Position numbers and translations under genes: made by a program. Below are positions 25,350 through 55,439 of a stretch of DNA of 64,000 bases, piece by piece. This stretch comes from Bacteroidota bacterium. Lineage in GTDB: Bacteria > Bacteroidota > Ignavibacteria > UBA10030 > UBA8401. Location: positions 124,001 through 188,000 of the forward strand of contig DATJPT010000002.1 in assembly GCA_035506275.1 (NCBI GenBank), read 5' to 3'. The first letter of the stretch is position 1. Each line of letters starts with the position of its first letter. A model generated the notes under the pieces. That model worked only from the letters and a program-made list of their open reading frames with translations. It did no database searches and had not been told where the DNA came from.

Positions 25350-26264
25350 CTACAGCTCGCTGCCGTCGCTTAAATGGGCGAGGTCCGCACGGATCCTTTC
25401 GGCATTCCCCCAGTCGCTCCAATAGACGTTGTTGACGCGGAGAACGGCGAGGCCGTGCGCGTCGTGCTCGAGGATCGTCCCGGAGAAATCGACGGACGGA
25501 AGGTCCGCATACACCTTCGACACCGTTGCCGCTTCGTGCGGAGAGAGCAGATCTGCATCGATCTTCTTGAACGCCTGGAAGACGGCAGGCGTCAGCAGCC
25601 GGAACTTCCTCATCATCGTCGCCCCCGCTCCAACGAACACCATCGTGTTGAGCAAGCAATGCTCGAGCTGCACCGAGCTCAGCTTTTCGCTGTTCGGCTT
25701 TTCCAAAAAACGCTTCACGCGGAAGACCTCGTACCCGTCAATATCCGAAATCTTCATGCTTGATTCAATCCATCCGTAGTCGGTCAGGTGTTCCCGCAGC
25801 TCGACCCCGAGGAGGAGGAGATACTTCGAATGGTTTTCCACAAACTCCGCGGCCGCAGCAACATTGTCCATGAATCTTTCTTCTTCGATGATAAAATGGT
25901 CGGACGGAAAGATGACAACACGCGCGTCGGGGTCCCGGCGGAGAACGTGGAGCAGCGGAAGAAGAATGCTGGCTGTCGTCTCTTTATTCGACGGCTGGAG
26001 GATGATGTTCTGCTCTTCAAGTCCGGCCACATCATTCCCCGCGAACGGGGTCTGCTTACTGTTGAGCGTCACCATGATCCGCTCGGGGGGGATCCAGAGC
26101 TGCGCTCTGGCGATCGTATGCGCGAGCATCGAGCGCGTGCCGGTGAATGCGCAAAATTGTTTCGGACAGTCGGAATTAAAACGCGAGCGGATGTATTGTT
26201 TCAGTCTTCTTCCATCGCCGGCGGCGAGGATAATTCCCCAAACATGATCGTTGCGACGCGGCAT
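25350..26264 (-). CDS. Mannose-1-phosphate guanylyltransferase-like nucleotidyltransferase
   Basis: A 304-residue sugar-nucleotide pyrophosphorylase. GIILAAGDGRRL followed by CPKQF is the nucleotide-binding signature of COG0836 enzymes. VVIFPSDHFI and RFLEKPN are the metal/sugar-binding stretches. There is no C-terminal isomerase domain, unlike bifunctional ManC. The frame extends upstream to 26525, but ATG 26264 with GAGGG upstream gives the expected N terminus. GDP-mannose would feed the GT4 enzymes of the locus. The spacing between GDGRRL and PKQF is longer than usual, so specificity is inferred. Confidence 0.82.
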   Translation of the reverse strand: MPRRNDHVWGIILAAGDGRRLKQYIRSRFNSDCPKQFCAFTGTRSMLAHTIARAQLWIPPERIMVTLNSKQTPFAGNDVAGLEEQNIILQPSNKETTASILLPLLHVLRRDPDARVVIFPSDHFIIEEERFMDNVAAAAEFVENHSKYLLLLGVELREHLTDYGWIESSMKISDIDGYEVFRVKRFLEKPNSEKLSSVQLEHCLLNTMVFVGAGATMMRKFRLLTPAVFQAFKKIDADLLSPHEAATVSKVYADLPSVDFSGTILEHDAHGLAVLRVNNVYWSDWGNAERIRADLAHLSDGSEL

Positions 26265-26355
26265 ACTGCCCTCGCTGATGTACCGCAAATATACAAAATC
26301 GTTTTCACATTGTGCAAGCGGGGGGGGCGTTCTGCCGCAAAAAAATTCCGGGTAC

Positions 26356-26862
26356 TTAGGGGCTCTGCTTCGGCTGCCGATGGAGTTTCTCGCTCTCCGA
26401 GAGCTCCTGCAGAAGGGGAAAAATCCTCGTGATTTCGGCTTCAAGCTCGAGAAAGCACTTTTCGTACTTTTTCTTCGCCTTTCCGGTCGGATCCTCGACA
26501 GATGGCTGTCCGGGAGCCTCCTCAAGACCGAATTCCTTCAGGAGGAGTATTTTTCTCTCCCACTGCGGGAAAATTCCTCTGATGATTCTTCTGTGCGGCT
26601 CCGCCATGCACAGGATGACCGACGCGTCGCGGACCATGACGTGGGTGATCTGCTGCGCCCTGTGCATCGCAATATCGATGCCATGACGCCGGCAGACATC
26701 GATGGTCGTCTCCTCTGAAGGGGATTCGATGAGCGCCTCGGTTCCGGCGGAATCGACAAGGATGGAATGCTGAAGGCCCTTCTCCGCGACCATTTTTTTC
26801 AGGATGGCCGCGCTCATTGCGCTGCGGCAGATATTGGCAGTACAAACGAAAAGAATATTCAT
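26356..26862 (-). CDS. Low-molecular-weight protein-tyrosine phosphatase
   Basis: A 168-residue cytoplasmic phosphatase of the Wzb type. The P-loop CTANICRS gives nucleophile C7 and R13; the general acid is D124 in VEDPTG. These enzymes remove phosphate from the tyrosine tail of Wzc-type kinases and so control polymer length and export. Such a kinase is at 42218-44608 on the same strand. Its ATG directly follows the stop of the hybrid kinase gene (TAAATG), so the two are likely translationally coupled. Confidence 0.92.
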   Translation of the reverse strand: MNILFVCTANICRSAMSAAILKKMVAEKGLQHSILVDSAGTEALIESPSEETTIDVCRRHGIDIAMHRAQQITHVMVRDASVILCMAEPHRRIIRGIFPQWERKILLLKEFGLEEAPGQPSVEDPTGKAKKKYEKCFLELEAEITRIFPLLQELSESEKLHRQPKQSP

Positions 26863-29211
26863 TTACCGATTGTCCAGCACCTTTCTGACTGAAGCCATCA
26901 GCTCGTCGAGCAGAAACGGCTTCATGATGATATCGCGAACCCCCAATGCAAGAAACTCTTTTTTTGCTTTAAGGTCAATTGCGCCGGTTGCCAGAATTCC
27001 TTTGATGGACGGGTTCTGCGCAAACAGCTTTCTGAACAGATCCTCGCCGTTCATTCTCGGCATCGAAAGGTCGCTGATGACCAGGTCGATTTCAGCCCGA
27101 TGTTTGTCGTAGACCGAGAGCGCCTCTTCCCCATCCTGCGCCGTCAGCACCCTGTACCCGAATGAGACGAGCCCGTGTTCATACAGCTGGCGGAACGATT
27201 CCTCGTCGTCGACAATAAGGAGGCATTCGCTTCCCCCCTGGATGACTCCGGGCACTTCGTGTCCGCCGCCGGCCTGGCGATGCTCTGCGACAGGGAGGTA
27301 CATCGAAATCGTCGTCCCCTTCCCCGCTTCGCTCCGGACGTCGATAAACCCCCCATGCTGCTGAACAATGCCGTACGCCACCGAGAGCCTGAGCCCTGCC
27401 GCCTGGTCCGTCGCGCGCGCGTTGAAATACGGCTCGAAAATTCTCCGCTGGCTGTACTCGTCTAGCTCTTTTCCGTTGTCGGCGACGGCGATGATAACGT
27501 ATTCTTTTCCTTCCGAAAAATGGATGCGCTTTTTCACGTCAGCCGGGTCGGCGATGGAGGTCCGGAGGAGAATGGCGCCGCCCCCCGTCATCCGTCGTTC
27601 GGCGGTCATCGCGAGGTTGACGATAGCCTGATGCAGCTGATGAATGTCGCCGCTGACGACCGCGCCGCTGTCGTCCGTTGAAACTCCGACTGTCACAGCG
27701 GGGGCGAGCGAATGTTGAAGAATTTTTTCCGCCTGGTGTATGAGTCTTTCAACCGGAACCGGCCTCTGCTCGGCGCTTTTCGAGCGGGCAAAGACGAGAA
27801 GGTCGTCGGCAAGTTCCGACGCCCGCCGCGACTCCCGGAGGATCATCCCGATGTACTGTTCCATCTGAGCGTTGCCGAACGTCTCCTTGTACATCATCTC
27901 GGCCGAGTTCATCACGATGCCGAAAATATTCTTCAAATTGTTCCCGATGCCGACGGCGAATTCGCCGAGTGCGTCCATTTTTTGCACCTGCTGCGCTTCC
28001 AGTTCGTATCTCTTTTTCTCGCTGACATCCCGGAAAATACTCAACAGCAATTTTTTCCCCCGTCCGATGTTGATGAACGAATGCCTGACCTCGGCAGGGA
28101 TTTCTTCTCCTCCTTTCCGCTTCACCGTCTGGAAGGCCGGCAGTTTGAGCGTGCCCGCGTCGAATTGATCGCGATAGGCAGAATTAGCGGCATAGCGTTC
28201 CTCGAGGTTATCGTCGCCGGCGGCATATTCACGAAGAAGATCGTCCTTCGAAGTCCTCACCAGGTCGCTGTACGCGGTATTCACCATCACGGTCCTGCCG
28301 TACCGGTCGACCAGGCGCATGGCGTCAACGGAGTTCTCGAAGATCGCGCGGAACCGCTCCTCGCTGCTGCGAAGGGAGTGCTGAACTCTGTGCAGCGAAT
28401 CAAGGTCGCGGAGAAGGAAGTACGTTATCACAAAAACAGCGACGGTCAGCACGGCGCACCCTCCAGCGGCGGCAAGGGTACCGGCGGTCCAGAAGGTGTA
28501 TGCCGGCTCAGCAATATCGACGGTCAACAGCCTGCCGTACCCTGCGACCCCCTGCTGCAGACGGATCTGCGATTCCGCGTTCGAATAGCCGGTCGAAGCG
28601 ATCTGTTCTCCCCATCCCGAAAAAACCGCGATCTCAGCATTCTCCATCGGATGACGCCGAAGCACGTCGCCGAGAAGTTTCTCCGCCGAATAAAAGACAT
28701 AGCACGTTTCGGCTGCGGCGTCTCGCTGCGGCACGGGGTACCGGGCTTCGATGAAATAATGAGTGTTGCATCGAAACGGCTTTGTGTAAAGAATAGGCGT
28801 CGAAGAATCGGCAAACGAAAAGAGCGGCGTTCCGCGAACCGCCTGCGCGAGCAATTCCGCCGACGAATCCTGCGGGATGCTCCATCGAATACCGGTTTCA
28901 TTGTTGCCGCTTTGGATGGAAACGATCTCGGGGTGGGCGGAAGAATAGATCTCGCATTGCCGGCGAAGGCCTGCCGATCCAGAACTCCTCTGCGTCGCAG
29001 AAACGAAGAACTTCTCGTTCTCCTGAAGCGCGGTCTGAAACGCCGCGCAGAGAATATCCAAACGGTGCTGTACTTTTTCATGTTCGAAGCCGGCTTCCTC
29101 ACCTTCCAGAAGGTAAAAGAGCCACGCGAATGCCGCGGCAAACAAAAGAAATAATACCGCCGGGTACAACATCATTCTCCTTCGCCGCGACGATGATCTC
29201 CTCTTTTCCAT
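26863..29211 (-). CDS. Membrane hybrid histidine kinase with degenerate catalytic motifs, PAS and receiver domains
   Basis: A 782-residue inner-membrane protein: TM1 near 13-33, extracytoplasmic sensor 35-235, TM2 about 240-268, PAS about 280-400, HisKA about 405-470, HATPase about 520-640, receiver about 660-782. The H-box reads GEFAVGIGNNLKNIF, with N424 where GIAHDFNNL families have the phospho-accepting His. The N-box NLAMTAERRM has T536 for the Mg-binding Asn, the G1 box is DNGKE (578-582) instead of DxGxG, and the G2 box is GLRL. The receiver keeps its acidic pocket, D714 (VISDLSMPRMNG) and the KPF lysine. I infer a pseudokinase whose receiver is phosphorylated by another kinase. Start at ATG 29211; upstream frame is spurious. 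Confidence 0.85.
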   Translation of the reverse strand: MEKRRSSSRRRRMMLYPAVLFLLFAAAFAWLFYLLEGEEAGFEHEKVQHRLDILCAAFQTALQENEKFFVSATQRSSGSAGLRRQCEIYSSAHPEIVSIQSGNNETGIRWSIPQDSSAELLAQAVRGTPLFSFADSSTPILYTKPFRCNTHYFIEARYPVPQRDAAAETCYVFYSAEKLLGDVLRRHPMENAEIAVFSGWGEQIASTGYSNAESQIRLQQGVAGYGRLLTVDIAEPAYTFWTAGTLAAAGGCAVLTVAVFVITYFLLRDLDSLHRVQHSLRSSEERFRAIFENSVDAMRLVDRYGRTVMVNTAYSDLVRTSKDDLLREYAAGDDNLEERYAANSAYRDQFDAGTLKLPAFQTVKRKGGEEIPAEVRHSFINIGRGKKLLLSIFRDVSEKKRYELEAQQVQKMDALGEFAVGIGNNLKNIFGIVMNSAEMMYKETFGNAQMEQYIGMILRESRRASELADDLLVFARSKSAEQRPVPVERLIHQAEKILQHSLAPAVTVGVSTDDSGAVVSGDIHQLHQAIVNLAMTAERRMTGGGAILLRTSIADPADVKKRIHFSEGKEYVIIAVADNGKELDEYSQRRIFEPYFNARATDQAAGLRLSVAYGIVQQHGGFIDVRSEAGKGTTISMYLPVAEHRQAGGGHEVPGVIQGGSECLLIVDDEESFRQLYEHGLVSFGYRVLTAQDGEEALSVYDKHRAEIDLVISDLSMPRMNGEDLFRKLFAQNPSIKGILATGAIDLKAKKEFLALGVRDIIMKPFLLDELMASVRKVLDNR

Positions 29212-29246: not shown

Positions 29247-30476
29247 CTACGGATAAAAGCTTATTCTTCCATTCCAAAATCTCGTCAGAAAATCTGACAA
29301 AAATCCGGCCGGCGCTCGGCGCGCAACCGATGCCGACGCGATGACGCCGTCGGCAAAAGTATCGAGCGACCAGTGCGCGATGCGTTCTTGAGATTTTCGC
29401 CCCATCGACTCCAGCCGGTCCGCCGGCATGGCGGCCAGCTCCGACATCCGGCTCGAAAGCGCATCGCTGTCTCCGGCAGGAAACGTCCACCCGTTGACCC
29501 CCTCATCGACCAAGGCTTTCCCCGCACCGCAGCCGTTGCTGATGATCAGCGGCAAGCCGGATGCAAGCGCTTCATTGGCCACCAGTCCCCATGTTTCAAC
29601 GACGCTGGGAAGGATGAAGGCGCTCGCGAGACCGTAAAACCGGCAGAGCTGCGCGCCAAACTGGCTGCCGACAAACCTCACGCCGGAGTATTCTCTCATC
29701 GCGTTTTCGTGGCGGCTCCGTTCATCCCCTTCGCCGACAAGAACGAGCCCCCATGCATCCTGCCCGGCACGCACCGCATAATTCCGGTATGCTTCGAGGA
29801 GCGTCGCGATCCCCTTTCGGGCAATGAACCTTCCCACGAAGATGAAATATTTCGAAGGAAGGGTAAGCGTCCGGCGCAGCGCGTCCGCCTCCCTCCGTGC
29901 AGCCTCAGCTCCCGCCGCAAAAAAATCATTGTCGACAACATCGACTCCGTAAAAAATTCTCTCCTGCGGAAATCCCATCGCCCGGTAGTACGAGGCATGG
30001 CTTGGGGCGGGAATAAATGCCGCGTCGACATTTTCATGAATGATCCTCTTTATGACCGACACGATCGCTCCGCGCTTGTCCGAGTATTCCCATGCATCAT
30101 CCATCATGACCGAGATCTTATCATGGTCAAGGCAGTACTTTGTTGAAGCCATGCCCGAGGGAAACGGGGTGGACGGGGCGATGACAACATCCGGTTTGAG
30201 ATTCTCGAGGGCGCGAACTGCCCTGCGGTGAATGATGTACGGCGACAGCTCACGGTACGATTCCCCGGAAAAGAGGCACAGGTAATCATTCTCCCGTTTC
30301 GCCGCCTCTTCCGGAAAAGGATAGAGCGCGTCTTTCGAAGCCACTTCAATTGCCGTCAGACTCCAGCCGATGGCGTCGAGCCGTTTTCGCAAATGGCGAA
30401 TTCTCGCGACATGGTACGGCAAGAAATTCGTCCACATGATGACGATGTGTTTCGCCGGAAACCCCGCTCCCGTCAA
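29247..30476 (-). CDS. Glycosyltransferase family 4
   Basis: A 409-residue GT-B retaining transferase. The N-terminal half opens KHIVIMWTNFLPYHVARIRHL; the C-terminal donor-binding half holds KYFIFVGRFIARKGI and ETWGLVANEALASGLPLI, the E-x7-E signature. It probably adds a sugar to the lipid-linked repeat unit at the inner face of the membrane. The start is TTG 30476, overlapping the ligase stop (TTGA), with AAGGCGG upstream; ATG 30437 is an alternative. Donor and linkage cannot be told. Confidence 0.88.
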   Translation of the reverse strand: MTGAGFPAKHIVIMWTNFLPYHVARIRHLRKRLDAIGWSLTAIEVASKDALYPFPEEAAKRENDYLCLFSGESYRELSPYIIHRRAVRALENLKPDVVIAPSTPFPSGMASTKYCLDHDKISVMMDDAWEYSDKRGAIVSVIKRIIHENVDAAFIPAPSHASYYRAMGFPQERIFYGVDVVDNDFFAAGAEAARREADALRRTLTLPSKYFIFVGRFIARKGIATLLEAYRNYAVRAGQDAWGLVLVGEGDERSRHENAMREYSGVRFVGSQFGAQLCRFYGLASAFILPSVVETWGLVANEALASGLPLIISNGCGAGKALVDEGVNGWTFPAGDSDALSSRMSELAAMPADRLESMGRKSQERIAHWSLDTFADGVIASASVARRAPAGFLSDFLTRFWNGRISFYP

Positions 30477-31855
30477 TGTTCACCGCCTTGGGGCTCATTG
30501 CCGCTGGGATCCTGAGCGGCGGGGGCATCCTCCTTGGTCTCTCCATCTTCGCGGTACGCCAATGAGCGGGAAGTTCTCCTGAAGCGGCGGTAGAACTCCT
30601 CGCCTTCGTATGAAACTCTTTCGAGGCGCGATCGCTTTTCCGCGGAATACGCCAGCCCCAATATCGTAAATTGAAGATTTCCGTAGAACGCCGCGTACAA
30701 AACAATATTGTCGGTAAACATCATCAGAACAAAGGGGAGAAACGTCGATGCGGCGGCAAAAAACAACACCCGGATCTCCCCCTCGCTATGCCGGGCTTTT
30801 TTCAGCAAATGACGGACTTGAATGATCAGAGTGAACAAGAACAACGCGGTGCCGACGGCTCCATAATCATAGAGAAACCTCAGCCAATCGTCGTGGGGAT
30901 GGGTAAGCCTCCCTTCGGTCAACTTGAGGATCAGGTCCTCGGAAGCGTTTGCGCCGTGCCCCCAGATCGGCTTTTGCGAAATTTCAGTCAGGAGAACTCC
31001 GGCCATATAACGGCGGCCGCTTGTCGCAAGATTGTTCGGATCGGTGATATCCGACAGCGTCCCCTCGCCTTTCATGAACATCTTTTCCTGAACGCGCGGA
31101 GAGTAAAAGAGGGCAAGTCCAAGCAGCGCCACGACGACGATCAAAATTGCTCTCGTCTGAAGCTTCATCGGCGAAAACGTCGCCGGGAGCGACAAGCCGG
31201 TGGCGAAGATCGCCATCCTCGTCAGCGCGACCACCGGCATCAGCGCGATCGCCGACCACCAAAACAGATCCTTGACTCTTCCAAATGAATATCCTGAAGC
31301 GAAGAACGCCGCCAAAACGGTCGCCGTGATCGCCTGAGGAGCTAACGCCGTTGCGCTGGGGAGCTGACCGGTGATGAGAAGTCCTGTCAGGAAAAACGCA
31401 AGCACGAGAACGGCGAGTGAAAAAACTTTGACGAGCAGGGAGAAATTGATGATCTGTTTCTCATCGACGCGGGCTGTGGACGATGCCACGCCGACCACGA
31501 TCGGGCAGAGAAGGAGCGCGGAGCGCTGCAGGTTAGTGTAATCGGACATGTATCCGCTGATAGCCACAAAGAGCATCCACGGCAGCCAGATCGACAGCGG
31601 AAAACTTATTCTGTCGAAGTTTGCCGGAATGACCATCACCGCAAAGGCGAAACAAATGATCCATGCGTAGCCGGCGACGGAATAGCCGAGGAATCCCGCT
31701 CCGCCAAAGGTGCAGGCAAAAAAGGTCGTAATAAAGACAAGCCAGACCAGGATCGGCAGCTTGGAATGGCGGATCGCCTCTTTCCAGGTAACAGGCTGCT
31801 CTTCTTCGCCCTCCTCCTCTACCGCATGCTCGTCGGCAAACTCATCTTCCATCAT
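30473..31855 (-). CDS. O-antigen ligase / polymerase (Wzy_C) membrane protein
   Basis: A 460-residue integral membrane protein with about ten to twelve hydrophobic segments. A large periplasmic loop includes SGRRYMAGVLLTEISQKPIW, GHGANASE and LTHPHDDWLRFLYDYGAVG; the H-x2-N/D-x3 pattern is the mark of the WaaL/Wzy_C family. It either joins finished chains to a lipid or polymerises repeats. The first 25 residues are acidic (EEEGEEEQP) and the C-terminal ~55 residues are charged and cytoplasmic. It abuts the GT2 gene and overlaps the GT4 start. Confidence 0.85.
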   Translation of the reverse strand: MMEDEFADEHAVEEEGEEEQPVTWKEAIRHSKLPILVWLVFITTFFACTFGGAGFLGYSVAGYAWIICFAFAVMVIPANFDRISFPLSIWLPWMLFVAISGYMSDYTNLQRSALLLCPIVVGVASSTARVDEKQIINFSLLVKVFSLAVLVLAFFLTGLLITGQLPSATALAPQAITATVLAAFFASGYSFGRVKDLFWWSAIALMPVVALTRMAIFATGLSLPATFSPMKLQTRAILIVVVALLGLALFYSPRVQEKMFMKGEGTLSDITDPNNLATSGRRYMAGVLLTEISQKPIWGHGANASEDLILKLTEGRLTHPHDDWLRFLYDYGAVGTALFLFTLIIQVRHLLKKARHSEGEIRVLFFAAASTFLPFVLMMFTDNIVLYAAFYGNLQFTILGLAYSAEKRSRLERVSYEGEEFYRRFRRTSRSLAYREDGETKEDAPAAQDPSGNEPQGGEH

Positions 31856-32830
31856 TTAACGTACCCTCATCGTTCGAAGCAGGCTCCGAATAAATGTAAA
31901 GATTTGCAGGACAAAATTCCTCATTATCTTTGGCGCAGCGGCCGCCGCGAAATAAAAAGGGAGCCGGGGATCCGCAGCCGAATAGTGCGCCATGGCTCGC
32001 AGCTCGACAAACGTGTTGGCCCGGTCCTGCAGCTGCAAAAACATCGACGCCCTCATTCTGTGCCACATGGAAAGATACCGAAGAAAACTTCTGCGTTTCT
32101 CCGGCTCAATTGCCGGCAGCAATTCGGCCAATTTCTGGCCGACCTTGTCTGGAATTTCCGGCGTTCGTGTCGGATGACCGGTGAGCGGAGCGCGAAGCCG
32201 AAAAACGGCACATTGTTTTTTCGAATAAGCGATGGAACACTTCGCCGCCAGGCGCGCCCATGTCAACAGATCTTCCCCGATGCCGATAGCTTCCGGAAAT
32301 CCCCCGACAGAAAGGATTGCACTTTTTTTCACCGCGATCGCCGACGACCAGATCGGAGGGTCTGAGTGTGCTGCTGCTTCAAAATAATTTTGCAGGACGC
32401 CTTCCCATGGACCCGACGGCATCTTCCGCAGAATGGGGGACCGCTCCGCACCGCCGGTATCTTTATAGAGATAGTGGGTCGCAAAGACCGAGCACTGCTG
32501 GAATTGTCCCTGCAATCTGACCACGGTCTCAAGAAAATCGGGTTTCCATTCGTCGTCCGCGTCGAGAAATGCGATCAGCTCTCCATTGCTTTCAGCGACT
32601 CCCCTGTTGCGCGCCGCAGAAACCCCTTTATTCTCCTGATTGATCACCCGAATGCGCGCATCGTTCATCCCCCGGACGACCGCATCTCCGCCGTCGGTAG
32701 AACCGTCGTTGACGACAACAACTTCAAATTCAGACATCGACTGGCTTTGAAGAGAACGGATCGCGCGTTCGACATCCTTTGCATTATTGTAAAGAGGAAC
32801 GACGACCGATATGGCTGCCCTGGTGTTCAT
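31856..32830 (-). CDS. Glycosyltransferase family 2
   Basis: A 324-residue GT-A inverting transferase. SVVVPLYNNAKDVERAIRSL opens it, VVVNDGSTDGG is the nucleotide-binding stretch, and FLDADDEWKPDF carries the DxD-type metal motif. RNRGVAESNGE is also typical. A catalytic Asp/Glu pair near residue 190 (GIGEDLLTWARL) fits the family. The C-terminal 60 residues are hydrophobic/basic and may sit on the membrane. Its ATG overlaps the upstream GT4 stop (ATGA). Confidence 0.9.
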   Translation of the reverse strand: MNTRAAISVVVPLYNNAKDVERAIRSLQSQSMSEFEVVVVNDGSTDGGDAVVRGMNDARIRVINQENKGVSAARNRGVAESNGELIAFLDADDEWKPDFLETVVRLQGQFQQCSVFATHYLYKDTGGAERSPILRKMPSGPWEGVLQNYFEAAAHSDPPIWSSAIAVKKSAILSVGGFPEAIGIGEDLLTWARLAAKCSIAYSKKQCAVFRLRAPLTGHPTRTPEIPDKVGQKLAELLPAIEPEKRRSFLRYLSMWHRMRASMFLQLQDRANTFVELRAMAHYSAADPRLPFYFAAAAAPKIMRNFVLQIFTFIRSLLRTMRVR

Positions 32831-42217: not shown

Positions 42218-44608
42218 TTACGTTTTTTCTTTGGGAGTATATTTCTGCTGATAGTAGTAATCGCCGTGCAGATGGTAGTACCCTCGGTGCAGGCGGTTCA
42301 GCTCGTACTGATTGACGACGATGCCGGCAAGGTTCAGCCTGATGCCTTCGATGATGTCCACGGAATGCTCGAGACTGTCGAACGTCGTCGAATTCGTCTT
42401 CACGACAAAGATGACCGCATCGACCATCGCAACGAGCAATTCAGAGTCTGTGAAGAGAAGGATCGGCGGCGAATCGTACAACACAATGTCGTACATCTTG
42501 TCGAGCTCCGCCTTCAGGTTCTTCATCGTGGAAGAGCCGATCAGCTCGGTCGGGTTCAGCGGAATGGCTCCGCAGGTGAGGATGTCGAGGTTCTCGATGA
42601 ACGTATGGCGGATCGCCGCGTTGACATCGACCTCGCCGAAGAGGACTTCGGTCAATCCCGGTTCAAGGTTCAGATTGAACAGTTCGTGGATCGTCGGCCT
42701 CCGCAGGTCGACGTCGACGAGGAGCACTTTTTTCCGCGTCTGGGCGAAGACGACCGCGAGGTTCGCCGTCGTCAGCGATTTCCCTTCCTGCGGCGCGCCG
42801 CTGGACATCAGGATGCTCTTGACGGGAGTCTCTTTTTTCCAATACTGAACGCTGGTCCGAAGACGCCGGTACGAATCTGCGATGCGCGAATACGGATTTA
42901 TGGCGGTGATCAGATGCGGATCGATGACCAGACCGTCGGAGGCGGTCTCTTTCTCCCCCTCCCCCACAACCCTGCGGATCGTTCCCCGCTCGCCGTCCAC
43001 GGTCCCGTCGAGCGTTTCTACCCGGGTCACCAGGTTGAGCGTCTTCTCGTCCATCGCTGGAATCACGGTCAGCACGCTCAGCCCGCGCCGCTTGATGTCT
43101 TCCGGCTTGTGGATGCGGTCGTCAAAATAATTGATGAAAAATGCGGAGCTGATGCCGATCACCAGCCCGATGAAAAACCCGAAGCCGAGGTTCTTGGGGA
43201 TGTTGGGATAGAGATGCGTTTGCGGCGGAAGCGCGCGCTGAAGGATGTCGACGTACCCGAACTCCGACTGCTCCGCGATCAGGGCGGATTGATATTTTTC
43301 CTCAACGGCCACATAGACCTTTTCCAGCGTCATCTTCGTCCGCTGAAGGCGGGCATAGTCGATGTTGATCTTCGGGATATTCTGGAAGCGCGCCTCGCTC
43401 TGGTTGATGCCGTTCACCAAAGCTTTGCGGCGGACCTCCAGCGATTGCAGGTGCATCTGCGCGTCGATCAACTTCTCCGATAGGTCTTTCGCCAGTTCCC
43501 GGCTTTCGGCGGCCCTCCTCGGTTTGTTCGAACCGGTGCCGATCTTGTCGGAGATTCTTTTGTTGAGCGAGGCGATCTGGCCGTTGATATCGGCGATGCG
43601 GCTGGCAACCAGTGACTGGTCCTGCGTTGCCGAGTTCTGTTCTTTGATGAGCTCCCGTTCCTGCTCGAGCGAATTGATCTGTTCGAGGAGCTTCTGGATC
43701 TCGATGCTGGCCACCATATCCATGATGCGCTTGCTGTCGGTGTCGATCTCGTCCTCTTCATTTTTGGGAAGCGTCGCCTTCACCTCGGCGAGACGCCGCT
43801 CGTACGTCGATACTGTGCTCCGCGCGGTTTCAATTTCGATCTCGACCTCGTCGCGCTGGGCCTCCAGGTCGGAGATCGTCTTCACAACGGATTGAGTTTC
43901 TTCATCGATCGAGCCATGCTTCTCGATATAGCGCCGCAGATCGTCCTCCACGGAATCAAGCGCCACTTTCTTCGCCTGGAGCGTCCTCTCGAGAAACTCG
44001 CGCGTCGACCGCAATTGCTTCCGGCTGTTGTTGAGGTTATTCTGGTAGTACGCTTCCGCGTACGCGTTCGCGATGATCGCGGCTTCCTTCGGGTTCGTGC
44101 TGAGCGCGCTGATGAAGATGACGTCGGAAGCTTTATCAGGGTCGAACGAAACGGCATCGTCGAGGCGGCTGAAAATATCCTCGTTGTGGGCGAACGGCCC
44201 GAACGAAGGCTCGTCATCCGACCGTTTGAGGACCTCGAGCGTATCGGTCCCTCCCAGCGTCGCGACAGGATTTTTCTTCAGCAGAGCCAGCACGTCCTCC
44301 TCGATCACCCGGGACTTGAGGATGCCGATCTCCTTCATCAGGTTGCGGGTCGTCCCGCCCAGGTCCGAGAGATCGATAGAGCCGAGCGCCATGTCGCTCT
44401 TCGCCTTGTTGCTCACCTGGACGATCGCCACCCCTTCATAAATAAAGGCGCCGAGATAGGTGTAGAGAACGGCGCCGATGAAAAAGGCGAGCGTGATCCC
44501 CATGATGACATACTTCCACCGTTCGAGGATCTCGATATAATCGCGCAGGCTCAATTCGAGCGCCGGCGGCGACGTTCCCTGACGATTGTTTGTTGTTTTG
44601 GCTGCCAT
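42218..44608 (-). CDS. Wzc-type polysaccharide co-polymerase / tyrosine autokinase
   Basis: A 796-residue inner-membrane protein. The Wzz domain starts near residue 20 with TM1 at about 33-53; a coiled-coil rich periplasmic part covers about 190-410; TM2 is near 465-485. The cytoplasmic BY-kinase has Walker A SSGAPQEGKS near 602 and Walker A' LLVDVDLRRP, then TCGAIPLNPTELI. The tail carries six tyrosines within fourteen residues (777, 778, 784-786, 790), the usual autophosphorylation cluster. It controls chain length and export; the phosphatase at 26356-26862 is its likely antagonist. Confidence 0.92.
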   Translation of the reverse strand: MAAKTTNNRQGTSPPALELSLRDYIEILERWKYVIMGITLAFFIGAVLYTYLGAFIYEGVAIVQVSNKAKSDMALGSIDLSDLGGTTRNLMKEIGILKSRVIEEDVLALLKKNPVATLGGTDTLEVLKRSDDEPSFGPFAHNEDIFSRLDDAVSFDPDKASDVIFISALSTNPKEAAIIANAYAEAYYQNNLNNSRKQLRSTREFLERTLQAKKVALDSVEDDLRRYIEKHGSIDEETQSVVKTISDLEAQRDEVEIEIETARSTVSTYERRLAEVKATLPKNEEDEIDTDSKRIMDMVASIEIQKLLEQINSLEQERELIKEQNSATQDQSLVASRIADINGQIASLNKRISDKIGTGSNKPRRAAESRELAKDLSEKLIDAQMHLQSLEVRRKALVNGINQSEARFQNIPKINIDYARLQRTKMTLEKVYVAVEEKYQSALIAEQSEFGYVDILQRALPPQTHLYPNIPKNLGFGFFIGLVIGISSAFFINYFDDRIHKPEDIKRRGLSVLTVIPAMDEKTLNLVTRVETLDGTVDGERGTIRRVVGEGEKETASDGLVIDPHLITAINPYSRIADSYRRLRTSVQYWKKETPVKSILMSSGAPQEGKSLTTANLAVVFAQTRKKVLLVDVDLRRPTIHELFNLNLEPGLTEVLFGEVDVNAAIRHTFIENLDILTCGAIPLNPTELIGSSTMKNLKAELDKMYDIVLYDSPPILLFTDSELLVAMVDAVIFVVKTNSTTFDSLEHSVDIIEGIRLNLAGIVVNQYELNRLHRGYYHLHGDYYYQQKYTPKEKT

Positions 44609-44660: not shown

Positions 44661-46034
44661 CTACCTCCCTTTGCCGAAGAGCATGATATGGATTGTTTTC
44701 AGCATAATATCGACGTCCAGCAACAGCGAATAGTGCGAGATATAATACAGGTCGTACTGCAGTTTGGTGATCGTATCGTCGATGTTTTCGCCGTACGAAT
44801 AATTCACCTGGGCCCACCCGGTGATCCCCGGCTTTACAAGGTGCCGAAAATGATAATACTCAATTTTCTGTTCATATTCACGCGCAACTTCGAACCATTC
44901 CGCGCGGGGGCCGATGATGCTCATTTCCCCCTTCAACACGTTCCACAATTGCGGCAATTCGTCGAGCCGCGTCAGCCGGAGGATCTTTCCCACCTTTGTC
45001 ACGCGGGAATCGTGTTCGCGGACGTATTTATCGCCGGTCGCGGCTCCGTGATACATGGACCGGAATTTGTAGATGGTGAACGGCGACTCGTTCCTTCCGA
45101 TGCGGGTCTGCCGGAAAATAATCGGACCGCGGCTCTCGATCCGTATCATAATCCCGATGAGGATCATCACCGGAAGAAGAAGAAAAAAGCCGACAAAGGC
45201 GATCGCGATGTCGAGCAGCTGCTTCATCCGGTTGTACCACAGGTTGCGCACCAGCAGCAGATCGCCTTCGAACAGCCACCATTTGTTGAGGACGAAAAGA
45301 GGGACTTTTCTGAAATTTTCCTCAAGAAACATTCTGCTCGGAATGAGCGGAATATTCCGGAAGTGCAGCGAGACCAGTTCACGGAAGATCGCGTTGTTCA
45401 GCGATGACCGGTCTTCGGTCAGGATAATGCCGTCGCAGTCGTCGGTCATCGTGCGGAGTTTATTGAGAACATCCCCTTCGATCACCGGCGAACCGTCTCC
45501 TGCGATTGCGAGGCCGACCTTTTTCCCGCTGAGGTCGGCAAAGCGGAGCTCCTGATCCTTCGGCGTTTCGGCGTACATCCTGTACAATTCCTGAGCCGTC
45601 TCGTCTGTGCCGAGCACAAGATAAAACCGCTTCCGCCGAAGTTCCGCGAGGCGCGAATTGATCCCCCTGCGGACCGACAGTGAGATGACAAGGAAGGACA
45701 GATAGGTCGTCGGCAGAACGCTGCGGCTGAATTGCAGCGACGGCTTATAGCTGAAGATGTACACCACGACGATCGTCAGCACCATGATAATCACCATGGC
45801 AAGGATGTACTGGCTGGTGAAGGAGAGGCCGCGCATGTCGCTGTCCGGATTATACGCGCCGATCGCGTCGAGCACGAGCCACGTGATGATCACCGGCAGG
45901 ATCGCGCGGTACCAGTACTCCGTCACAAACTCCACGTCGGTGCGCAGGAGGCTGAGGATAAAGAAAATCCCGAAGAGCGTCGCTCCGTCTATCAGCATCA
46001 ACGTCAACTTGAATATGGTCTTTGACCTAAGCAT
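44661..46034 (-). CDS. Initiating polyprenyl-phosphate hexose-1-phosphate transferase (WbaP/WcaJ-like)
   Basis: A 457-residue membrane enzyme that loads the first sugar phosphate onto undecaprenyl phosphate. About four N-terminal transmembrane helices, a central nucleotide-binding-like domain, and a C-terminal catalytic domain with IIFRQTRIGRNESPFTIYKF, LTRLDELPQLWNVLKGEMSI, IGPRAEWF and VKPGITGWAQVNY. These are the bacterial sugar transferase signatures, including the DE pair. It sits 52 bases upstream of the kinase gene and begins repeat-unit synthesis. Confidence 0.93.
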   Translation of the reverse strand: MLRSKTIFKLTLMLIDGATLFGIFFILSLLRTDVEFVTEYWYRAILPVIITWLVLDAIGAYNPDSDMRGLSFTSQYILAMVIIMVLTIVVVYIFSYKPSLQFSRSVLPTTYLSFLVISLSVRRGINSRLAELRRKRFYLVLGTDETAQELYRMYAETPKDQELRFADLSGKKVGLAIAGDGSPVIEGDVLNKLRTMTDDCDGIILTEDRSSLNNAIFRELVSLHFRNIPLIPSRMFLEENFRKVPLFVLNKWWLFEGDLLLVRNLWYNRMKQLLDIAIAFVGFFLLLPVMILIGIMIRIESRGPIIFRQTRIGRNESPFTIYKFRSMYHGAATGDKYVREHDSRVTKVGKILRLTRLDELPQLWNVLKGEMSIIGPRAEWFEVAREYEQKIEYYHFRHLVKPGITGWAQVNYSYGENIDDTITKLQYDLYYISHYSLLLDVDIMLKTIHIMLFGKGR

Positions 46035-49993: not shown

Positions 49994-51991
49994 CTACGCT
50001 TCCCCGACCGGCACCTCATACACCGCCACCGGCGTATCGAGCCCCTTCACCTTGATCGGCTCAAGCGGGCGGATCGGTACTTGACCCTTGACGTGCCGGT
50101 ACGTCGCCTCCGAGATCATGATCCCTTCAACAGGAGCGTTCGATTCCAGCCGCTGCGCGAGGTTGACATCGGATCCGAGCACAGTATATTCCATCCTTCG
50201 TGCCGAACCGAGATCGCCAACGACCACTTCGCCGGTATTGATGCCGATGCGGATACGGAGCGGAAGCCTTCCCGCCGGCTCCCATCGGCGTTTCAGCTCG
50301 CGGCATTTCAGCTGCATCTCGATCGCCGCCTTCACGCAGCGGAGCGCATGGTCCGGCTGCGGCTCGGGAGCTCCGTAAAACACCATCAGCCCGTCCCCGA
50401 TGAATTTGTCGACCGTCCCGCCGTACTTGAACACGATGTCGGTCATTGCCTCGAAGTATTCGTTGAGCGTTGTGCTGATCTCTTCGGGGGTCATCGTTGA
50501 CGAGTACGTTGTGAAGCTCTTGATGTCGCTGAACATGATCGTGATCTCTTTTCGCTTCGGCAGCGTGCTCAGCGAATCGGGAGCGTCCACCATCTGACGG
50601 ACGACCGATGGGGGAAAATACTGTTCGAATTTTGAGCGGAGTTTCTGCTTCTCTTTTTCCTCCGTCATGTACCAGTAGACGACGACGGATGAAGCGGAAA
50701 AAAGGCCGCTTATGAAGGGACGAATGAAGGAAACGATGACGTTGCCGTAAATGAAGATCCCCGCCGCGAAGACAAGGTAGGCGGCAAGAAGCCCGGTGAC
50801 CGCCACCGAAAAACGAACGGACGGAAACCGGGTCGCAAACACGAAGATCGCCGCCGCGAAGAGGACCTCCAGCAAAAACATCGGAACGGCGGGAAGTTCT
50901 TCCAGAAAATTCTCGGTCAGAATCGTATTGAGAACGTTGGCATGAAGCCCGACCAGCGGGAAGTTCTGCTCGAACGGCGTCGGGCCGATATCCGATGCGC
51001 CGGTGGACACGTCGCCGACAAGAGCGATGGAACCTCCGTATTGCTCGCCGTATGCCTCCACTTCGTCGTTGTCGTCCGCGATGTTCAACACCTGCGCAAA
51101 GCTCAAATGCCTCATCGCCGACCAGCCGCCGATCCAATTGATCAGCATGTTGCCGCGTGAGTCGATCGGAATTATGATGTCGCGCTTCGTTCCGCCGGGA
51201 AGCTGGGCGGCATGAAGCGTGATCGATGTTCCTCCGGCAACGGTGATCTTGTCGGGGGGAACATGAAGATAATCGCACACGAGCCGCATCGCCATGCTCG
51301 GATAGAACTTTTCTTTGTAGCGGATGAGGAGCGGGACCCGGCGGAAAACGCCGTCGTCATCCGGCTCGACGCTGATAAACCCGATGCCGCGCGCCGCGGC
51401 GGCAAGGTCGCTCCATGTCAGGAGCGTCGCCCCGGCTCTGTAAAAATCGCCCGCGTCTTTCGCCTCGAGCGTCCATGCCGTCGAATCGAGAAAACGGATG
51501 ACGTCAGGGAACGCCGTCGCTGTGTTGACGGTCGTGTCGTCCAAACCGAATGCCACGGGAAAATAGGCGCGGCCGAACCGGCGTGTCGATTCCAGCAGAA
51601 CGCTGTCGTCGAGCGGTTGGACCTTCTGGGCAAAAATGATATCGTAGGCCACGGCCGAGCAGTTCATCCGGTTCAGGACATTGAGCACGTCGCCGTAGTA
51701 CCGCCGCGGAAAGTAGTAGCTCAGCTTCTTTATCGTCGAGTTGGCGATATCGACATGCAGGATCGATGAGTCGTACGCGGGGGGATGGAGCGCGGTCCGG
51801 ACGGGGAAAAGCCGGTCCACGGTCTGATGGTCCCAGGAATGGAAGACGCCGGGGAAGATCCAGAATAGAAAATGCGAAACGCAGAACGATGCCGCGATCA
51901 GGAAACCGGCGCCGGCAACTCTGCGCTTCTTACTTGTGGTCAATGGATACGGTCTTGCTGAAAAAATTGTTCGCCAGAATTTCCGTGGCAA
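49994..51991 (-). CDS. CHASE2-domain class III adenylate/guanylate cyclase
   Basis: A 665-residue inner-membrane cyclase. TM1 lies near 26-48; the extracytoplasmic CHASE2 sensor covers about 50-365; three TM segments lie near 375-450; the cyclase domain spans about 480-640. Metal-binding D489 (IMFSDIKSFT) and D533 (FIGDGLMVFYG) are present. K529 in DKFIGD fits ATP preference, and NLAQRLE carries the transition-state Asn/Arg. No ATG is available: TTG 51991 overlaps the upstream gene by 62 bases and TTG 51943 by 14; neither has a good ribosome site. It follows a DUF4384 gene and a caspase gene on the same strand. Confidence 0.9.
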   Translation of the reverse strand: MPRKFWRTIFSARPYPLTTSKKRRVAGAGFLIAASFCVSHFLFWIFPGVFHSWDHQTVDRLFPVRTALHPPAYDSSILHVDIANSTIKKLSYYFPRRYYGDVLNVLNRMNCSAVAYDIIFAQKVQPLDDSVLLESTRRFGRAYFPVAFGLDDTTVNTATAFPDVIRFLDSTAWTLEAKDAGDFYRAGATLLTWSDLAAAARGIGFISVEPDDDGVFRRVPLLIRYKEKFYPSMAMRLVCDYLHVPPDKITVAGGTSITLHAAQLPGGTKRDIIIPIDSRGNMLINWIGGWSAMRHLSFAQVLNIADDNDEVEAYGEQYGGSIALVGDVSTGASDIGPTPFEQNFPLVGLHANVLNTILTENFLEELPAVPMFLLEVLFAAAIFVFATRFPSVRFSVAVTGLLAAYLVFAAGIFIYGNVIVSFIRPFISGLFSASSVVVYWYMTEEKEKQKLRSKFEQYFPPSVVRQMVDAPDSLSTLPKRKEITIMFSDIKSFTTYSSTMTPEEISTTLNEYFEAMTDIVFKYGGTVDKFIGDGLMVFYGAPEPQPDHALRCVKAAIEMQLKCRELKRRWEPAGRLPLRIRIGINTGEVVVGDLGSARRMEYTVLGSDVNLAQRLESNAPVEGIMISEATYRHVKGQVPIRPLEPIKVKGLDTPVAVYEVPVGEA

Positions 51992-52670: not shown

Positions 52671-55079
52671 TTAATGAGGAACCAGCGAGATGGTCATGTC
52701 TTTGTCGTAGTCGCCTTGATTGCGGGTCGGATGCTGGTTCCCTTTCGTCTGGCGCATCACGTTCGCTTCGACGTAGTCCATCAACTCCCCGATCGTCACG
52801 GTGTAATCGTTGTTGATGTCGGCATCGCCTTTCATCCCCTGAAGGAGGTAATAGGTGAACACTCCGTGCCCGAATTTGTCCAGCTCCTGCGACACTTCTC
52901 CGGCCTGGCTCGCTGTGAAAACGATCGTCCCTTCTTTTGACTTCGAGAGGTCTGAGAGGTACTGGTTGATGAGGTTCGTCCCGCTCAGCGACACCCCCCG
53001 CGTCGCAAGGTCGGAGCTGATGCCGCCGCTGTGGCATGCGTCGGAGAACACGATGACCCGCTTCGACGGGATATACCGCGTCAGCGCCGTGTTGACATCC
53101 CACATCGGAAACGCGGTCGTCTCGAGAGAATTCGGGTCGCTGTCGTATGTCAGGAGATAATTGTTGTTCGGGTTTGCCGGCTCCGGAGCGCCGTGCCCGG
53201 CAAAATAGATGATCACCAGATCCTTGTCGATCGTCTGACGGAGAAAATTGTACAGCGCCTGCTTGACGTTCTGCAGCGTCGCATCTTTGTTGAGGAGGAT
53301 TTTCATTCTCTCAGGTTCGAAGCCTCCTCCCGCGGGCATCTTCAGAAACTCCGCAAAATCGCGCGCATCGCGGTCGGCGTAGCTGAGGTTTTTGATCAAC
53401 GGGTTCGAGTATTCCGAAATGCCGATCACCACGGCCCATTGCTGCGGCTGCCCCGAAGCGCTTCGCTGCGGTTTGTCGGGCTCGGCGCTTGCCGTTGCCG
53501 ACAAAATGCGGCGGTTAATATCGATGACCCTCGATATTCTTTCCCCCGATCTTCCGTAAACGGTGAACTGAACCTGATTGAAACCCGACGAAAGGGGGAT
53601 CGGCTCGGTTTGAAGCACTCCCAGCGGCTTGCGCGGGATGTTCTCTTTGTTCGCAATTTCGATGGTGTTGAGCGTGACCGAATACCTCGAGTAGTCGAAC
53701 CATACCCTGAACTGCAGGTTCTCCGACGCCTGGTCGGTCTCCATATTTCCCTTCGGGCTGATCACTTCAAGCGCCGAATCTTTTGCGAGCCGCTGCACGC
53801 GGATCTTTTTCGTCGCAACATTCCCGTGGATATCCGTCGCAGTGACCACAATATCGTTCATGCCGATATTTGCCAGCGGCGCCGTCGCAGAAAATCTTTT
53901 TGAGGGAAGTTTGACGGCGAATTGAGTTCGTTCGTCGGCGGTCAATTCCGTCAGTGCGGCGGGTTGACCGGCAACCGTCGCCCCGCGCACACCGCTCTCA
54001 TCACTCGCAATGCCGGCAACTTCAATCTCCGAGGCGTAGACTTTATAGGAATCAGTCTCTTTCTGAACCGGCTTTTGGAACACTACGGCCGGAGGCTCTC
54101 TGTCCGGTTTCTGGGCCAGCACGGAAAAAGTTTCCAGCGAACCGGCCGTTGTTGCGGCAAGGAGCGTTGAGCTGTCGGGCATAAAAAGTGCCGCCGTATA
54201 GACCGTGCCGCTTTCCGGAAAACTTTTTCGCAGCGCGCCGGTGGTGACGTCCCAGATCGTAATTCCGTTTCCCGTCGCGGCGATCCACACGTTATTCGGA
54301 TCGAATGCGACCGAGGTGATCGTTTTCGAGTTCCAGTGAAATGTCTGGAGGAGCGAAAAAGTCTGAGCATCCCAGACCCGTACCGTGGAATCCGCGCCGG
54401 CCGCGGCGAGATATTTTCCGTTCGGGCTGAATGCGACCGCTGTCGTCATGGTCTTAATTTCTGCGAGCGTCGCAACGAGGGCATTTGATTGAGGATCGAA
54501 TATCCGGACAAGGCCGTCGGCATTGGCAGCGGCAACGCGGTTCCCCGCGGGGTTGAAGGCAACGCTGAGAACTTCACTCTCGTCAGAACTGTTGGGGAGC
54601 GAATTCAACGGATCGTCGGAGGCTGTCGTCCAGAGTTTTATCTCCCCGTCCCCTCCGCCGCTCACAATCATTCCCGCCGCATCGGCATCGATCGAGCGGA
54701 CTCCCAGCCCCTGGCGGTGGGCCGGAACTTCTTTGAACAACGTGCTGTCTGCAAGATTCCAGTAGGAGAGTGCTCCGCTGATCCCTGCAGAGATCAGATA
54801 CTTTCTGTCCGCGGTAAATGCGAGCGTCGTAATCCTGGGGTCATGCCCCGACAGAGCAGATCTTATCCGAAGCGACACGGGGTCGACAAGCTGGATGGAT
54901 TTATCGAACCCGGCCACGGCGAGAAGACTTTCGTCCGGGGAAAGCTTTACCGACGTGATGGTGTTCTTGAGCACGGAGGCGTGTTTGAGGGGCTCGACGT
55001 AAAGCTCCTGCGCGGACAATTGCCTCGGAAAGAACAAGAGTCCCGTGAACAAGACAAGGAGCCAAACCCTTCGATTCAT
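52671..55079 (-). CDS. Secreted WD40-propeller caspase-family protease with EF-hand loop
   Basis: An 802-residue exported protein. The signal peptide ends RQLSA|QE. Seven WD40-type blades cover about residues 30-320 (for example MTTAVAFSPNGKYLAAAGAD). Beta-rich linker domains run to about 545. The caspase p20-type domain follows, with the dyad H629 (YFAGHGAPE) and C682 (SDACHSGG). Residues 754-765 fit a calcium EF-hand loop, with D754, N756, D758 and E765 as ligands. ATG 55079 is chosen because the upstream frame runs over the predicted promoter. It heads a minus-strand trio with the DUF4384 and cyclase genes. Confidence 0.9.
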   Translation of the reverse strand: MNRRVWLLVLFTGLLFFPRQLSAQELYVEPLKHASVLKNTITSVKLSPDESLLAVAGFDKSIQLVDPVSLRIRSALSGHDPRITTLAFTADRKYLISAGISGALSYWNLADSTLFKEVPAHRQGLGVRSIDADAAGMIVSGGGDGEIKLWTTASDDPLNSLPNSSDESEVLSVAFNPAGNRVAAANADGLVRIFDPQSNALVATLAEIKTMTTAVAFSPNGKYLAAAGADSTVRVWDAQTFSLLQTFHWNSKTITSVAFDPNNVWIAATGNGITIWDVTTGALRKSFPESGTVYTAALFMPDSSTLLAATTAGSLETFSVLAQKPDREPPAVVFQKPVQKETDSYKVYASEIEVAGIASDESGVRGATVAGQPAALTELTADERTQFAVKLPSKRFSATAPLANIGMNDIVVTATDIHGNVATKKIRVQRLAKDSALEVISPKGNMETDQASENLQFRVWFDYSRYSVTLNTIEIANKENIPRKPLGVLQTEPIPLSSGFNQVQFTVYGRSGERISRVIDINRRILSATASAEPDKPQRSASGQPQQWAVVIGISEYSNPLIKNLSYADRDARDFAEFLKMPAGGGFEPERMKILLNKDATLQNVKQALYNFLRQTIDKDLVIIYFAGHGAPEPANPNNNYLLTYDSDPNSLETTAFPMWDVNTALTRYIPSKRVIVFSDACHSGGISSDLATRGVSLSGTNLINQYLSDLSKSKEGTIVFTASQAGEVSQELDKFGHGVFTYYLLQGMKGDADINNDYTVTIGELMDYVEANVMRQTKGNQHPTRNQGDYDKDMTISLVPH

Positions 55080-55163
55080 AAAAGCCTTTTCACGAGGAAA
55101 ACGTCCGAGCGAGTGCGAACACTCATTGGTCTGGGGTTGCGGAGATGGAGCATTATCCGCCCA

Positions 55164-55192
55164 AGTATGGGAAAAAGTCCCCTCTTTGTCAA
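55164..55192 (-). promoter_or_regulatory. Candidate promoter of the caspase operon
   Basis: On the minus strand a perfect TTGACA (55192-55187), a 17-base spacer and CATACT (55169-55164). The predicted leader to the ATG at 55079 is about 78 bases. Confidence 0.58.
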
Positions 55193-55439
55193 GGCTGGAG
55201 GTCACACTGCCGCCGGGAGCCTGGGAAACCGATGGTAGTGGAGTTCTTTGATTAGAGGGGTGGATTGATGGAAACGAGGGACGATGTAACCCTTCAACTC
55301 CGCTGCGACTCTCCTCCTTCCCCTAAAGGATATCTTCGGGGGGCAACAGAGAGGTCGCGTCCCGCCCCTTTTTGACGGAATCGGGGGGAAATATTCTCCT
55401 TCTGTACCGATCAACGCAAGAGACCCGCCGCCATACCGA

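Follow-up and report, generated by a model that had tools for sequence, protein, structure and literature searches.

What purpose could a hybrid histidine kinase serve once the residues needed to phosphorylate itself have gone and its receiver has been left intact? The question is raised by a gene lying in the 64,000-nucleotide stretch of Bacteroidota DNA analysed here (the window), which belongs to a genome of 3.7 Mb in 20 contigs. The most likely answer is that this gene encodes a repurposed controller of surface-polysaccharide synthesis and is not a decayed kinase, since relatives with the same losses occur in four genera, mostly next to the same sugar-polymer genes.

Gene and domain organization

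The gene is carried by the minus strand, from an ATG at 29209-29211 to a TAA at 26863-26865, with neither internal stops nor frameshifts (Table 1). A ribosome-binding-like GGGAGG stands immediately 5′ of the ATG. Pfam recognizes the PAS domain, the HATPase_c domain (53.6 bits) and a C-terminal Response_reg domain (PF00072, 80.2 bits), which is not an HPt domain, and gives a weak HisKA match of 21.5 bits, below the 26.9 cut-off. The full-length AlphaFold model resembles DHp-CA proteins, and its structural matches are DHp-CA structures, DivL among them; with a pLDDT of 66 and a pTM of 0.32, it is too weak to place the arginines R540 and R608. Run separately from two sequences, the sensor domain (residues 36-240) reached a pLDDT of 52. 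The protein has a recognizable DHp-CA layout in which at least one catalytic residue is missing, and it is called the pseudokinase hereafter.

Table 1. Features of the pseudokinase locus, numbered along the window, and of two orthologues, numbered along their own loci.
Feature	Position	Strand	Details
Pseudo-hybrid-histidine-kinase gene	26863..29211	-	782 aa; TM - extracytoplasmic domain - TM - PAS - DHp - CA - receiver
Membrane helix 1, predicted	29107..29175	-	about residues 13-35; hydrophobic stretch and helix in the low-confidence model
Extracytoplasmic sensor domain	28498..29103	-	residues 37-238; fast-evolving
Membrane helix 2, predicted	28411..28497	-	about residues 239-267
PAS domain	28027..28359	-	residues 285-395; PF13188/PF00989
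DHp (HisKA) domain	27787..27999	-	residues 405-475; without phospho-acceptor His
CA (HATPase_c) domain	27277..27747	-	residues 489-645; degenerate
Receiver domain	26866..27231	-	residues 661-782; D668, D669, D714, T742, K764
N424 (AAC), phospho-acceptor His position	27940..27942	-	N in 5/5 members, H in 54/54 canonical relatives
N428, phosphatase residue of H-E/D-x-x-T/N	27928..27930	-	kept in 5/5
T536 (ACC), Mg-binding N-box Asn position	27604..27606	-	T/D/A/S/S in the five members; N in 54/54
R540	27592..27594	-	fixed in 5/5; Ala in 53/54 canonical relatives
E582 (GAG), last position of DxGxG (DNGKE)	27466..27468	-	E/E/A/P/P in the five members; G in 54/54
R608 (AGG) of GLRL	27388..27390	-	fixed in 5/5; G in 54/54 canonical relatives
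GT4 glycosyltransferase	29247..30476	-	directly upstream; conserved block
Wzy_C O-antigen ligase/polymerase-like protein	30473..31855	-	conserved block
GT2 glycosyltransferase	31856..32830	-	conserved block
Low-molecular-weight protein tyrosine phosphatase	26356..26862	-	ATG abuts the pseudokinase stop (TAAATG)
Nucleotidyl transferase (PF00483)	25350..26525	-	next downstream; common to the same-genus genome
G005 orthologue	L029:5400-7722	+	single frameshift in PAS domain, halves otherwise intact
G009 orthologue	L028:4534-6264	-	no extracytoplasmic domain; only membrane helices before PAS

Loss of catalytic residues

A sequence-only reading of the gene had pointed to four altered catalytic positions, H424N, T536, DNGKE and GLRL. 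Verified codon by codon, all four are real and correctly numbered, and none of the 54 aligned canonical relatives, taken from the same and from other families, shows any of them. Three radical replacements (H424N, A540R and G608R) are fixed in the five members of the clade described below, all of which read GLRL at the G2 box except G009, with GLRM. The changes go beyond the four initially recognized: A540R is one of them, another is the replacement by Asn (N425, AAT) of the Asp that follows the His position in 54/54 canonical relatives, this acidic residue being Asn in four of the five members, and the ATP-lid Lys599 is missing in four of five. Other CA residues (N532, D578, G580, F596, G606 and L607) are retained in all five.

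The sequence-only reading had also considered autophosphorylation on another His of the dimerization helix. Such a substitute acceptor was rejected, since the DHp helices of the window's protein (405-480) hold no His and none is conserved there among the orthologues. The protein departs from an active HisKA-type hybrid kinase at the acceptor His and at the N, G1 (DxGxG) and G2 (GLGL) boxes; because it has neither a phospho-acceptor His nor the Mg-binding Asn of the N box, and has lost the phosphate-loop glycines of G1 and G2, it would not be expected to autophosphorylate. The receiver had been described as keeping its Asp and Lys. These are D714 and K764, and together with D668, D669 and T742 they are invariant in the five members, so that the residue set of a canonical phosphorylatable receiver is complete.

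A single clade of pseudokinases

Five members, distributed over four genera, were found among the 22 genomes examined from one GTDB-level family. Apart from the window's protein, they comprise a full-length orthologue in the same genus (G001, 58% identity) and three elsewhere in the family (G004, full length, 39%; G009, 38%; G005, 42%). The five members form one clade (support 100/100) in a maximum-likelihood tree built from 59 DHp-CA-receiver cores. The stem of this clade measures 0.81 changes per column, and the clade is nested next to 21 canonical, active-looking kinases from the family (joint group 100/96). Since they constitute a single long-stemmed clade next to canonical kinases, the losses would be most simply explained by one series of changes on the stem, inherited thereafter. 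Profile searches of 391 genomes of the class and 395 of the phylum, even samples that leave room for rare members elsewhere, returned no further member, and the weakest member scored 762 bits against 516 bits for the best canonical kinase.

The orthologues with the same substitutions that the sequence-only reading had proposed to look for are thus available, and no member retaining the canonical residues was seen. An assembly error or a private decay of the window's copy was rejected on the grounds that the changes recur in an independent genome of the same genus (58% identity) and in three further genera. The claim of a selected loss of kinase activity, as opposed to drift or misassembly, is supported by four orthologues, 38-58% identical, with equivalent losses.

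Constraint on the kinase core and on the receiver

Retention was measured as the share kept of the positions conserved in the canonical sister clade, with controls of five outgroup canonical kinases each, drawn at random 500 times. It amounts to 0.59 for the DHp domain of the pseudokinases versus 0.76-0.85 in the controls, and to 0.61 versus 0.82-0.89 for the CA domain, while the receiver (0.78) lies within the control range of 0.71-0.81. The kinase core has therefore changed and the receiver has not.

Between the same-genus orthologues, identity reaches 78% in the DHp and 66% in the CA domain, with the receiver within the 65-78% range, as compared to 88% and 67% for the DHp and CA domains in a pair of canonical orthologues taken from these genomes. 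With DHp and CA identities this close to those of the canonical pair, the core appears not to have simply melted. The extracytoplasmic domain is only 41% identical, against 68% in the canonical orthologues over the part that aligned. In the DHp, CA and receiver domains of the same-genus orthologues, dN is well below dS, the latter being near saturation, which makes dN/dS a rough guide. A single clade, fixed replacements and a normally constrained receiver argue that the losses have been conserved under selection and do not represent private decay. As far as comparison of sequences can tell, a selected and lasting loss of kinase activity is highly probable.

Association with polysaccharide genes

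The pseudokinase is the last gene of a close-packed block, GT2-Wzy-GT4-pseudokinase, all on the minus strand. The order of this block is kept in the window's own genome and in G001, G004 and G005, which makes four of the five member genomes and three genera. At the thresholds used, the Wzy and GT4 proteins were found in exactly these four genomes out of the 60 searched. Within the 22 genomes of the family, Wzy occurs in four and the pseudokinase in five, and all four coincide (hypergeometric P of about 7e-4, uncorrected for kinship). The remaining member, G009, has a pseudokinase in a genome where Wzy and GT4 were not found; its downstream genes match those of G004 at 61-87%, and a DUF2062 protein lies downstream of the pseudokinase in both. 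Since the G005 gene is frameshifted and G009 is devoid of the extracytoplasmic domain and of the Wzy and glycosyltransferase neighbours, the sensor and the operon link are not universal. The G005 frameshift may be an assembly error.

A low-molecular-weight tyrosine phosphatase gene directly follows the pseudokinase in the window, and a 72% identical gene occupies the equivalent place in the same-genus genome. The wider cluster encodes more glycosyltransferases, a sugar transferase of the initiating type (44661-46034), a WecG-type transferase, a Wzz/AAA chain-length protein and an SLBB protein, and is therefore taken to specify a polysaccharide destined for the surface or for export. The pseudokinase locus has no linked gene for a dedicated partner kinase or an HPt protein, and no other two-component gene was matched in the window; the genome has only two HPt matches, both located on other contigs than the locus.

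Comparison with known systems

Pseudo-histidine kinases are an accepted and sparsely studied category, of which few have a known role and the best studied, DivL, appears to have kept the motifs of its ATP site. The acceptor His is missing in about 0.9% of HisKA domains (PMC12632262). DivL of Caulobacter, like the window's protein, is a PAS-DHp-CA protein with the acceptor His replaced, in its case by Tyr (once by Ala) in all orthologues, and DivL regulates without kinase activity (PMC4211667). However, DivL appears to keep the N, G1, F and G2 boxes, which are broken in the window's protein, and its described layout has no receiver, whereas one is fused here; the two have separate origins. With Asn at the His position, broken boxes and a receiver, the pseudokinase falls outside the DivL family.

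A closer parallel in layout is CCNA_03265 (CC_3162), a Caulobacter hybrid kinase from a hyper-adhesion screen that is reported to lack the conserved His and, as here, to keep the receiver Asp (PMC11481889). The bare architecture is thus not unprecedented. Unlike the present clade, CCNA_03265 is a single gene, and its authors leave open a possible substitute His nearby (PMC11481889). Their paper reports neither an orthologue clade nor a loss of ATP motifs, and our comparison is with its description of the protein (PMC11481889).

RcsD of enterobacteria resembles the pseudokinase as a hybrid-like membrane protein with an inactive kinase domain, and takes part in a capsule-regulating pathway (PMC13317618, PMC3842833). 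Its output is an HPt domain, in contrast to the receiver, with no linked HPt, of the window's protein. RocA of group A Streptococcus is not known to carry a fused receiver. It too is a membrane protein resembling a kinase, its CA domain is degenerate, and it works through another kinase (PMC7028121). Unlike the window's protein, RocA has a predicted acceptor His, which is dispensable.

In the open-access literature searched, we found no prior description of a clade devoid of both the His and the ATP boxes, with fixed replacements, an intact receiver and a link to a Wzy block. This monophyletic set, whose whole kinase core has been dismantled, whose fused receiver is intact and whose gene mostly still sits beside polysaccharide genes, would provide a clean natural case for understanding the role of a receiver whose own kinase is permanently dead. 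Surface polysaccharide would give this question an output that can be measured.

A proposed role and its alternatives

We propose a conserved hybrid pseudo-histidine kinase whose receiver is phosphorylated in trans and which tunes polysaccharide synthesis, a statement that we hold tentatively as a whole, its chances falling somewhat short of even. The protein would act as a membrane sensor and scaffold, whose DHp-CA body relays to the C-terminal receiver the conformational changes that arise in the extracytoplasmic and PAS domains. The receiver would be phosphorylated by another kinase of the cell or by a small phosphodonor; a donor in trans is likely because the receiver chemistry is invariant while its own DHp domain has no His. 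That a receiver phosphorylated in this manner is the output-bearing part is slightly favoured. The two possibilities put forward by the sequence-only reading, a receiver presented to another kinase or an ATP-independent conformational coupling, are both plausible.

As suggested by synteny, the polysaccharide machinery encoded in its operon could be what responds to the state of the receiver, and an action of the pseudokinase on polysaccharide synthesis is somewhat more probable than not. A precedent is offered by EpsW of Myxococcus, a single-domain response regulator whose receiver has no DNA-binding output; it controls polysaccharide synthesis post-translationally and, once phosphorylated, activates the initiating transferase, apparently by contact (PMC12802240). 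The setting is similar in that the window's cluster encodes an initiating-type sugar transferase. EpsW differs in being a free receiver, phosphorylated by DifE, whereas the receiver is here tethered to a membrane pseudokinase. The most economical proposal would then be a receiver that is tethered to the membrane, gated by a sensor and active on the polysaccharide proteins encoded with it in the operon.

The alternative that survives best is a kinase-dead phosphatase, or phosphate sink, whose DHp domain would dephosphorylate its own or another receiver through N428 and drain a partner kinase. In the H-E/D-x-x-T/N motif of HisKA, phosphatase activity alone depends on the T/N and kinase activity alone on the E/D (PMC3510030), and the His is not essential to the former (PMC12632262). 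Such a role is conceivable since N428 is kept in all five members while the kinase-specific acidic position is mostly lost. We consider it unlikely, as N428 is equally conserved in the canonical relatives, where its retention may be structural, and the DHp residues near the site have strongly diverged.

The pseudokinase might also pair with a canonical kinase and modulate it allosterically, in the manner of RocA-CovS or RetS-GacS, leaving the receiver to serve chiefly for docking. The same genomes contain paralogues of this lineage that look active (L002, L013), and a partner kinase has been documented as the route of action of RocA (PMC7028121) and proposed as that of ChrS (PMC9491836). This is still a rather improbable explanation, given a DHp domain only 30% identical to that of the sister paralogue and a window with no match to another two-component gene.

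The fate of the former ATP site leaves room for other interpretations. HisKA kinases use the Asp of DxGxG to contact adenine and have an N-box position at the nucleotide four residues beyond the Mg-binding Asn. Based on these roles, R540 and R608 would point into what used to be the ATP site. With Asp578 and Gly580 retained, the glycine loops and the Mg-binding Asn lost and both arginines fixed, one can picture a site rebuilt as a Mg-independent ligand pocket. The protein would then be a sensor of a nucleotide or other anion, gating a membrane-tethered receiver that acts directly on a Wzy-type polysaccharide machine; we think this improbable. An enzyme that is still active, with an unusual acceptor and nucleotide mode in which the two arginines substitute for Mg and the glycine loops, could draw on the same fixed arginines and on the invariance of the adenine pocket (Asp578, Gly580) and of the first N-box Asn, but is very doubtful with no conserved His in the DHp helices, an acceptor position conserved only as Asn and the acidic neighbour missing in four of five members.

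Relaxed decay of a gene no longer needed by the family, to which the G005 frameshift, the G009 N-terminal truncation and the low CA retention could be ascribed, is largely refuted and barely credible in the face of long intact frames in four of five members, dN well below dS in the three domains, a normally constrained receiver, an operon position maintained across genera and the new fixation of N424, R540 and R608 in all five.

Other features of the window

Several neighbouring genes deserve mention. The nucleotidyl-transferase frame overlaps the phosphatase gene and the same-genus orthologue (304 aa) starts later, for which reason the listed start is probably too early and the true one probably lies inside the frame. 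The Wzz/AAA_31 protein (42218-44608) is likely a chain-length regulator of the tyrosine-kinase type and shares the cluster with the low-molecular-weight tyrosine phosphatase; a cross-talk of either with the pseudokinase is conceivable. A second extracytoplasmic sensor near the cluster is encoded at 49994-51991 on the minus strand, where a CHASE2 domain is joined to an adenylate/guanylate cyclase domain. Also close to the polysaccharide genes, an 844-aa fusion of WD40 repeats with a caspase-like Peptidase_C14 domain occupies 52671-55205 on the same strand.
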